64,000 nucleotides of DNA from the NCBI GenBank assembly GCA_030141605.1, contig JAQGDQ010000018.1:906501-970500 (forward strand), written 5' to 3'. A program made the translations under genes and the position numbers. The notes under the pieces are model-generated. The model was not told the DNA's origin. It did no database searches and was given only the letters and a program-made list of their open reading frames with translations. Of this stretch, positions 22,102-26,600 are shown piece after piece (the stretch's first letter is position 1; each line of letters opens with the position of its first letter). Source of the DNA: Tubiluchus corallicola (taxonomy: Eukaryota; Priapulida; Priapulimorpha; Priapulimorphida; Tubiluchidae).

Positions 22102-22334
22102 GGTTTAATATGAAAAACACAAGCTTGTGGTACTAGCTGATATATGAACTAGTTTGCTAATCATTAATTGCTTTGATGACATGTAGTTCAAATTTTAAAT
22201 TGGTCTAATGACTGTTGGTGATATATGTGCTTTAGTAGCTTTAGTTATGCTTAATTTAATTTTGAATTTGTTGTGCCTTTGAATTAATTTGTTTTAAGGG
22301 CAATACAGCATATCAGTGATTTCTGTATAATGTA

Positions 22335-22525
22335 CAGTCAAACTTCATTATAATGGCCCCCTTTAGAGTGCCATCCTCAGTTAATGCTCAAATTTTTACC
22401 GAAACAAAGTGTCTGTATTTGTACAGACATGAATGTATTAATGCACCTCGTTATAGTGCCAAACTCGCTATAGCGCAAACGTTTTTCTGGAATCCCTATG
22501 TAGGTGGTATAAAGAAGTTTGACTG
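22335..22525. mobile_element. 191-bp MITE with TA target duplication
   Basis: The ends are perfect inverted repeats CAGTCAAACTTC / GAAGTTTGACTG flanked by TA on both sides, as in Tc1/mariner (pogo/Tigger-like) non-autonomous elements. The interior contains ATTATAATGGCCCC and CTCGCTATAGCGC words. It lies 3' of the AIG1-like gene. The open frame at 22353-22568 is an accident of this element. Confidence 0.85.
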
Positions 22526-23932
22526 TAGTTTTTATCAGTTGCTCTTTTGGTTGTGCAAATTCATGTAATTTAACTTGGTATTTAGCTAAAATTTAAATGG
22601 TGTGCTTCTTCTGTGTACATAGTTGTCTCATGTTAGTAGCAATTGTTGTTCTTACTTTTGTTATCTTTGTTATATAACATTTAAATTTCGTTGTTAGGGC
22701 TGTTTTGTACTGTTTGTCTATACTACATGCTCATTTTTTGTATAATGTGATACACTTTTACTGTGAACCAGGTTTTAGAATTGTAATTAATGTTGATTCA
22801 TTAATTTTATTTATTTTAAATCGGTGGTCAAAAGATTACATTTATGTTTTTGTTATGTGTGATTTATGAACAGTATTACAAATATGTAGTTACGTTTTAT
22901 GTATAAAAGATCAAATTTACTTGTAATGAAAAATTGTTTGGTAAAATAAAACGTAGTTGTGTGAATTGTGTGTCAAGTTGTTTTGGATTTATAATTAACA
23001 TTTTTTCTGTGATTTTGAAAATCACCAAGACCAAAACCAATTAATTTGCTTATAAGATATGAGCTAATTAATTAATGCCATAGATAAAATCCTGACCAGT
23101 GAATATGTTGATGAAATTATGAAGTTCTCTTTCATAATCTGAATGCAAAATCATTTAACGTTTTAGCAGTTGTGAAGCGGTTAATAAAATTACCTTGTTG
23201 ACATACTAATACGAACTGTTTGACCGCAACTGATCCTACTGAGACCTAGCACATTGTTAGTGACATAGAAATTAATAAAAACAGTTTATATGGTTTTTTC
23301 AGTAATTTTTTGCAGCAGATGTTCTTCTGTTGTAGTATAGGCTAACAATAAACTGACTATCGATTACATGATAAAAAAATGATTACAAAATAATTAAAGG
23401 CATATTGGTCAGTAGTTATTATTAGAATACTGATCGACTTGTTGACTGTCGAACTAGATTCAAACCGAATTTCAAGATTTCGAATCCGAAATTGACTTCA
23501 GTTTTAAAGATTTCCAAACAAATTTTCGAATCATTAATGAAAAGCAGTCTTGCAGGGATCATGCATATTGCTTCGTTTTGTTCTGCAGTAAAAATGCTAA
23601 TTTGTTTAAAGATTGTGTACGGAAATCACAGCCAAAAAAATTAAGATAATTCATATTGCATGCTTTATCAAACGTAGTAATGGTAAAAAAAGTGTGTAGT
23701 CGAGTTATGCGAATCCATAATTATAGCTTTTAGTTTCAATCGAATTTAAAAAAATCATTCTAAGCAGTTCAAATAACATTCAATGCTCATTGCTCACCCC
23801 TACTTATAACTAACTATATATTATCTATACGATTTATAAGTCATTTTCAGCGGTTCACTGGCTCCACTTCACCTTTTCAAAGGTGAGCACAACCTATTGA
23901 GTGTGCAAGAGTAGATTATTTTCCAGTATGTT
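22526..23932. other. AT-rich intergenic sequence
   Basis: No exon or element with clear ends is seen here. Confidence 0.4.
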
Positions 23933-24093
23933 TTTCCTGTTAATGGTTTAAGAAAGACAATACAGCAAGTGATGTTATAAAACTGATAATTGTTAACTAT
24001 ACATGCAGTCATACAATGCAATCTTGAGTGTGTGTAAAAGGCCTATAAGATTTGCAATAGCAACAAACGAAAATTGACCTAGAAATTCGCGAC
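23933..24093. repeat. Paralogous segment holding an unoccupied transposon target
   Basis: This segment matches the sequence that flanks the hAT-like insert. The left part (GTTTAAGAAAGACAATACAG onward) matches about 24487-24548, and the right part (ATACAATGCAATCTTGAG onward) matches about 25283-25350. Here the two halves are continuous through ATACAAT (24011-24017), so this copy preserves the state before insertion. Confidence 0.85.
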
Positions 24094-24294
24094 TTGCAAT
24101 CACTACAGTACCTATTTTGATTTTCAACATCAGTGTTTCGAAGATTTTGCACATTGATTTATCAGCCGAGCAAGTGAGCCCGTGGTCTCAGCCTCAGTAG
24201 CTGCAGTGAGGTTGTACCGTTGTAGACAGTTTTAATACGGTTACTTGTCAGATGCTTGCAATAGACGTACTGGGCATTCGTTGAAAACGACTTA

Positions 24295-25750
24295 GGTCGC
24301 GTTTCCACTGCGTCCGCACATTCATTGATTTTTCTGTTTGCCCGTTTTACGTCCGCAAAAGTTGTTCCCACACACAACCGTCCTCATTACTCACTATTCG
24401 TATTACGATGCTGCAAAAATTTCAGCGCGTAATCAAGATATGGGACTTTTTGAGGAGACAGAGGCATGTATTTCCTGTTAATTGTTTAAGAAAGACAATA
24501 CAGCAAGTGATATTATACAGCTGATAACTATACACGCAGTCATACAATGGGTGCTATTACACTTTCGCACCGCCTAGTTTTTCCTAGGTTATTACTCGTT
24601 TCTAGGCTCGTACGTCATTATTCTATTATTCTTACGTCATCAGTGAATGTTTCCGCTAATCTAATTGTAATTTAATCATATATTTAGGTATAATTACCAA
24701 TAATTACGCTGTATTCACAGTTCTACACGTATCGCCATCTTGTTTGTGTGTGTAGTCACGTGACGAATTTCGTACTAGTTTATGCATTATCAGGGCCTAG
24801 CTTAAAAGCACGTGACACACTTTCATCTTCACCACATCTACGAAATAAAGAAAAAACCTTTACTTTTTTTATAATCTAATACTATAGTAAATAATACTAC
24901 AGTAATAAATAAAATTAATGATAAATAACTGTAGTCGTCTAAAATAATTCCCTCGTATATGCCAGCTTGGGTCCCGTGGCTGCAACCCTAATAATCATAA
25001 ATTATGCGAAGAAACTAAAAATACGTGTTGAGGGCCACATCGTCACTGCGCGAGAGCGATTGCGCATTAGTGGTGTAAACACAGTTATTCACCTGCAGCT
25101 TTTTGCGCAATGGCGGCGGTAAGTAATGTATGATTTTAATCTGGAATTATAAAGCCTAAAAAGCAATAATATTATGGGAATATGGTGTATATTACGCCTG
25201 TTGGTCTGCTTTCTGGCCTGCAGGCGTGAAAACAACCAATAGGCCAGGAAAAGCTAGGCGGTGCGAAAGTGTAATAGCGCCCATACAATGCAATCTTGAG
25301 AAAGTGCAAAAGGCCTATATGTTTTGCAATAGCTACAAACAAAAATTGACTGAGTAGAAATTCTGAGACAGTAGTGTCTTATACCATAAATTTGACAAAA
25401 TGCATTGAAAAAAGAATTGCAAAATCAAACCCAAGTTTTTGGAAATGCTGAAAAAGCAAAACTAATATCAAAAACTAAATATTTGTTCTTTATTACTGTC
25501 CCTAAAAGCTATTTCAACTCACATCAGTCTTGTGACACCTCTGTGACTGTGACTCTTTAGGGTCCTTTTGTCATATAGGGAGGGTCTAAACTCTACAGCA
25601 TTTGTAGAAACAAACTTTTACGTCCGAAGATGCAATGGAAACGACCAGTGCGAAAAACAATAATTGCAAAAATTCGCTATTGCTTCAATTTTTCCGTGTG
25701 AGTGACGCAGAAAAATTCCGTGTCTGCGCGGACTCAGTGGAAATGTAACC
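24295..25750. mobile_element. Harbinger-like non-autonomous element
   Basis: The ends are imperfect inverted repeats: left GGTCGCGTTTCCACTGCGTC, right (reversed) GGTTACATTTCCACTGAGTC, both continuing into CCGC. TTA flanks both sides (24292-24294 and 25751-25753). A GG-start TIR with a 3-bp TTA/TWA duplication is typical of PIF/Harbinger. About half of its 1456 bp is the nested hAT-like insert. No transposase frame is visible. Confidence 0.75.
24549..25282. mobile_element. hAT-like non-autonomous element nested in the Harbinger-like one
   Basis: The termini are GGGTGCTATTACACTTTCGC on the left and, reversed, GGGCGCTATTACACTTTCGC on the right, a TIR of about 28 bp continuing into ACCGCCTA. The target duplication is ATACAAT on both sides (24542-24548, 25283-25289), or CATACAAT if the last C is counted, which gives the 8 bp usual for hAT. 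The unoccupied paralog at 24011-24017 has the site once. Inside, near 25106-25125, is a GC-rich GCGCAATGGCGGCGGTAAGT, which looks like an ATG followed by a splice donor. Confidence 0.9.
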
Positions 25751-25753
25751 TTA

Positions 25754-26243
25754 AGAGTGCAAACTAGTGCAGAGAAGCTGAAAGTTAATAATCTTAATTT
25801 TTTTTACATTATTAGTTATTATTAACATAACATCTTGATTGCAAAATCTAAGAGACCTAATCGTAGTATGGTTTTTGAGGCTCTGTTCTCAATGATTTTT
25901 GAAACGAGCCGGATTTTATGCTTCAGCAATTTCACTATTAAGTGAATTCCAATGGCCCATGAGAAAAAAAGCAATAGGCTCTGACATTAGTGTGAGAGAG
26001 TGTAGTACAAATGAATTAGAGCTGTATTCATGTATATGACATAGTGCTATAAAATATCACTACATAAAGTTGAATTGCCACTGACGACTTTATAGCAGTC
26101 AAGATCTATAGCTTCATAGCAATTTTTAAAAGAAGAATACTCTGTCTAGGCCAGACTGATACATCTCCATTCAGTTCCTTCTAAAGCATTCTGTAGAGCA
26201 ACACACCGAGGTGACATACAACGCATGCGCCACAAGCACTGAT
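25754..26243 (-). mobile_element. Probable continuation of the LINE remnant below
   Basis: The minus frames past the stop at the end of the 26244-26600 fragment look like frame-shifted remains of the same reverse-transcriptase C-terminal region (for example a VRSVLVAHAL-like stretch just after LYKAS), but they are too broken to define. Nothing else is seen. Confidence 0.3.
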
Positions 26244-26600
26244 CTAACTAGCTTTGTACAGAGGTACAGTAACCTTTGTACTACGTAATGAAATGCAACA
26301 TTTTATTATTCCAGTGCGTCTGTTAGCCTGAGCAGTAATATGCTCAATGTGGGAGTTACATTTGAGGTTATTTGAAATTAATATTCCCAAATCACATGTA
26401 ACTGGTTTTTCTTCAATAACACCATCTCTCATGTAATAAGGCATTGTAGAATTAGAATGAATGTGAAGTGTGCTGCCTTTACTGCGTTTGAGGGACAAAA
26501 ACCACTTGTCACATGATCGCTCAATTTCAGGCAGGCCTGCTTGTAATATCTCTTGAGCAGGGGTACTTCTAATTGGGAGGTTAAGGTTTAATATCATCAA
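26244..26600 (-). mobile_element. LINE reverse transcriptase C-terminal remnant
   Basis: A 118-codon frame on the minus strand matches the end of non-LTR reverse transcriptases: a CDKWFLSLKRSKGSTLHI block (the thumb-side W-L-N--K----HI motif), then CDLGILISNNLKCNSHIEHI, then ANRRTGII and VTVPLYKAS. DLG-LIS--LK--HI followed by NR--G-I and LYK-- is characteristic of CR1/L2/Jockey-like LINEs. The catalytic palm motif is absent and a stop ends the frame early, so this is a 5'-truncated dead copy. Confidence 0.75.

Follow-up and report, generated by a model that had tools for sequence, protein, structure and literature searches.

Introduction

The Merlin superfamily comprises IS1016/IS1595-like eukaryotic DDE transposons together with their MITEs; the target duplications on record are 8-9 bp for Merlin, 5-8 bp for hAT, and a 3-bp TWA for PIF/Harbinger (PMC4482050). 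Merlin elements have TIRs starting with GG, an ISXO2/IS1595-type gene tied to the same terminus, and short, non-coding derivatives present in high copy number. All of this is equally true of the inner of the two elements described here, a likeness that we draw from duplications, termini and gene linkage, and for a family whose two-ended autonomous copy was not recovered. PIF/Harbinger MITEs—non-coding, a few hundred bp in length, starting with GG and flanked by TTA or TAA—in turn resemble our outer element, the differences being that the outer family is known here without a linked transposase and that its interior is poorly conserved. With hAT MITEs the inner family shares 8-bp duplications in about half of its copies; the rest, however, have duplications of 9 bp, the target preference is a different one, and the associated coding sequence is that of Merlin and not of hAT.

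The window, by which we mean the whole 64,000-nucleotide stretch that was analysed (C1937:906501-970500 in a 343.5-Mb assembly), contains open reading frames whose translations resemble what we take to be Aurora kinase, CYLD and Pumilio-like proteins, as would befit an animal genome. Within it lies what is very probably an internally deleted Merlin element nested in an older Harbinger-like MITE, the two representing separate cut-and-paste families. Whilst a nested record of this kind is ordinary transposon biology, without wider mechanistic consequence, it provides a clean insertion-site record for one Merlin MITE family, and the occurrence of 8- and 9-bp target duplications against identical element ends should aid in classing short elements that are easily taken for hAT.

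Results

The inner element, its ends and its target duplications

Working outwards from its centre, the locus consists of an inner element bracketed by a 9-bp duplication and an outer element bracketed by TTA, with a short, uninterrupted relative of the outer interior lying upstream:

24550-25281, + strand: inner non-autonomous Merlin element, 732 bp (ends, target duplications, PF12762 link at C763)
24550-24602, + strand: left TIR of the inner element (window self-comparison)
25229-25281, - strand: right TIR of the inner element (window self-comparison)
24541-24549, no strand: left copy of the 9-bp target duplication CATACAATG (ends of genome copies; sequence read)
25282-25290, no strand: right copy of the 9-bp target duplication CATACAATG (ends of genome copies; sequence read)
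24295-25750, + strand: PIF/Harbinger-like MITE forming the outer element, 1456 bp in its present state (paired termini GGYCGCRTTTCCACTG, TWA duplications)
24292-24294, no strand: left TTA target duplication of the outer element (sequence read)
25751-25753, no strand: right TTA target duplication of the outer element (sequence read)
23928-24088, + strand: empty-site relative, an interior fragment of the outer element (BLAST self-comparison, 85% over 164 columns)

The TIR of the inner element is GGTGCTATTACACTTTCGCACCGCC; in a self-comparison of the window its termini appear as inverted arms of about 53 bp (24547-24601 and 25230-25284) that are 85% complementary, and no coding capacity was seen in the 732-bp element. 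Both flanks of the insertion match the uninterrupted upstream relative (23928-24017 against 24466-24548, E 1e-25; 24011-24088 against 25283-25363, E 1e-20), such that the nested insertion, and the before-and-after comparison which the original prediction built upon it, are real.

Seen once in the upstream fragment (24010-24018), CATACAATG is doubled around the inner element, where the sequence of the window, taken on its own, allows a duplication of 7, 8 or 9 bp to be chosen. The original prediction had read an insertion of 734 bp (24549-25282) with a 7-bp target, ATACAAT, and had held both ends and duplication to be proven from the window by itself. The insertion and the doubled repeat are indeed there; the claim of proof was nevertheless too strong, as the genome copies correct the duplication from 7 to 9 bp, the shorter reading having arisen from one base too many being assigned to the element at each end. 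We place the element at 24550-25281 because other copies in the genome start GGCGC and finish GCGCC directly against duplications of their own.

At least 40 copies of the inner family are present in the genome, and a search with the inner TIR, allowing up to two mismatches, returned 224 + 218 = 442 occurrences (reversed control, 0). From our sample of 39 further genome copies taken with their flanks (about 90-96% identical), both termini could be recognised in 38, the ends reading GGCGCTATTACA...TGTAATAGCGCC with small variations. Perfect target duplications are of 8 bp in 18 of these 38 copies and of 9 bp in 12; a further six show one or two mismatches (two of 8 bp, four of 9 bp), and in the remaining two no target duplication was present. 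Taken overall, the lengths are thus 8 bp in 20/36 and 9 bp in 16/36, with identical element ends; and since, with the ends held identical, the two lengths are mutually exclusive except in repetitive sequence, the 9-bp duplications are genuine and not 8-bp duplications with a chance extra base. Among the 18 perfect 8-bp duplications, position 2 is preferentially A and position 7 preferentially T.

Linkage of the inner family to a Merlin transposase gene

The genome contains seven matches to PF12762 (ISXO2/IS1595-type), the transposase domain of Merlin. A 363-aa open reading frame on the minus strand of C763 (C763:23283-24371) matches it with an E of 4.9e-17; the inner TIR is found on the same contig at C763:22230, where a match to inner positions 1-424 begins, at 91% identity; collinearity with a long family member, L109, extends over 900 bp from this point and stops about 150 bp short of the end of the reading frame. 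Linker and transposase gene occur again on C1923 (91%), at a locus that has lost the left element end, and partial recurrences are found on C2089 and further contigs. Near the reading frame on C763, a search of 22200-26300 (1.9 kb beyond it) did not find the family's right terminus (423-732), nor did it appear within 1 kb of the transposase reading frame on C1923; and no complete autonomous copy, with both TIRs and the transposase gene, was seen among the C763 and C1923 loci.

With target duplications that fall in the 8-9 bp range of Merlin, and with its own left terminus and linker running, in a collinear relative, into a gene for an ISXO2/IS1595-type DDE transposase, the inner family is therefore very probably Merlin. 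At inner position 423/424, four long members (L109, L110, L114 and L115) carry additional sequence of between 180 and 740 bp, from which it follows that the window copy is an internally deleted form, its junction lying at about 423/424 of the element, or about 24972 of the window. One of these long members, L109 (C313:25300-27500), has itself received a 507-bp inverted-repeat insertion (CAGTGGCCGCCGCTTATTATGGACA...) at its positions 1473-1979.

The best PF12762 match in the genome, on contig C2335, was considered as a source of the inner family and rejected; it is bacterial-looking, matches the IS1595-family transposase NF033547 (E 3.5e-48) and lacks the inner TIR. The surrounding locus (L116, C2335:83700-85500) is dense in bacterial-looking open reading frames, and the contig may derive from a bacterial symbiont or a contaminant.

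The original prediction had called the inner element hAT-like, and a hAT MITE would be in keeping with the 8-bp duplications seen in about half of the copies, with the abundance of PF05699 matches in the genome (115), and with a dimerisation domain inside one inner copy, L110 (PF05699, E 2.4e-6). That domain, however, belongs to a separate nested insertion with its own TIRs (T/CAGTGGTTCCCAAA) and its own target duplication (ATTTAGTG, 8 bp): L110 (C542:73880-75730) is a Merlin copy struck, at its positions 955-1618, by a short hAT element that retains a remnant of coding sequence. This is the only hAT sequence that we saw in the family, whose termini are linked instead to the Merlin gene. Furthermore, 16 of the 36 duplications, at 9 bp, exceed the 5-8 bp of hAT, and nTnnnnAn, the hAT-like 8-bp target pattern, is absent from all 18 of the 8-bp duplications that are perfect. 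Together with the linked PF12762 gene, these observations replace hAT by Merlin, and leave the former hardly credible. Equally hard to credit is a Mutator/MULE-type MITE, with which 9-bp duplications and GG-starting termini are certainly compatible, and for which the genome provides seven matches of weak to moderate strength; the family has duplications of 8 bp no less often than of 9 bp, and beside the inner termini it is the Merlin gene that was found, and no MULE gene.

The outer element and its empty relatives

Once the inner element and a single copy of its duplication are subtracted, the outer element measures 715 bp, its termini being GGTCGCGTTTCCACTGCGTCCGC / GGTTACATTTCCACTGAGTCCGC. 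Among distinct copies with paired termini, selected for equal triplets but not for TWA, the target duplications are TTA in six, TAA in five and ATA in one; that is, TWA in 11 of 12, although one locus on C2264 entered the count in both orientations, via near-identical contigs, and the number of independent loci is accordingly slightly below 12. The 3-bp TWA duplication is that of PIF/Harbinger, and by termini and target duplications the outer element fits a MITE of this group, in agreement with the TTA-flanked, Harbinger-like host of the original prediction. The Harbinger transposase domain, PF13359, has eight matches in the genome.

An uninterrupted relative of the outer element is found at C2264:670726-671482, and C399 and C349 contain relatives that are likewise uninterrupted but partial; these, and a second locus on C2264, have neither the insert nor its duplication. 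The search for genome copies with and without the insert, as proposed alongside the original prediction, has in this way confirmed the pre-insertion state.

Contigs C2264, C2138 and C1787 give outer-family matches at equal identities and corresponding coordinates, and look to be redundant (haplotigs). Elsewhere, the terminal region of the outer MITE (about 62-63 bp) occurs in tandem arrays, with about 12 copies in L033 (C2009; positions 1512-2242) and about 8.5 in L034 (C2047; positions 1260-1786); a MITE end turned minisatellite.

Discussion

Order of events

Sixteen substitutions in 726 positions separate the inner copy from the consensus of its family (K2P 0.022), whereas between the upstream fragment and the host segment there are 20 in 156 (K2P 0.14). 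Were the two events of equal age, and assuming equal neutral rates, about seven differences would be expected (Poisson P 3e-5; conditional binomial 0.001). On that assumption the comparison supports an inner insertion younger than the split between fragment and host segment, as the nesting demands and as the original prediction had ordered them: duplication or Harbinger insertion, then the inner insertion.

The history of the locus was very probably as follows. An old Harbinger-like MITE inserted at a TTA target; 161 bp of interior sequence, either from this MITE or from a very close sister, lie 450 bp upstream; and, much later, the 732-bp Merlin derivative entered the MITE, a 9-base staggered cut duplicating CATACAATG. 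The transposase that moved it, presumably acting in trans, would have been a Merlin enzyme (ISXO2/IS1595-like DDE) of the type encoded on C763.

Origin of the upstream fragment

The uninterrupted paralog that had been reported about 450 bp upstream is present, but as a 161-bp fragment of outer interior (23928-24088) and not as a whole paralogous element. Genome-wide the fragment matches only the interiors of the outer family, and its right flank (24085-24294) is single-copy; the direction is therefore settled, in that the fragment derives from the outer family, which did not itself capture sequence from here.

How the fragment reached its position is a matter of weighing three readings. We prefer a local duplication, as suggested by a deletion of about 25 bp that fragment and host segment have in common, relative to C399, C2264 and C349. 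Besides this deletion, clean substitutions grouping the two number only three, and on resampling the host segment is the fragment's nearest relative in 940/1000 replicates, the reverse holding in only 532/1000. A serious rival, to which we would give an appreciable though clearly less than even chance, is that the fragment is what erosion has left of another outer MITE copy that inserted independently; outer copies are scattered, and interiors without recognisable ends exist on several contigs. Against this reading stand the deletion and the three substitutions, which are common to fragment and host segment and not seen in the other copies; nor was any outer-family sequence found flanking the fragment. 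An origin of the fragment by excision, or by duplication of this one locus in the assembly, either of which the original prediction had recognised as fatal to its argument, is exceedingly improbable: we found nothing in support, the fragment has diverged by 12% and has other indels and other flanks, independent outer copies elsewhere are likewise empty, and the locus is present once in the assembly.

Returning to local duplication, one specific form of it, which we put forward tentatively and regard as somewhat doubtful, is that, before the Merlin insertion, a repair event took the outer MITE's interior as its template and left the fragment as a patch nearby. If true, such a patch would amount to an internal reference copy of the transposon left beside the original. 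Just upstream of the fragment, window positions 23433-23790 belong to a very abundant repeat, with some 1,700 first-look candidates in the genome, the best copies being 70-83% identical.
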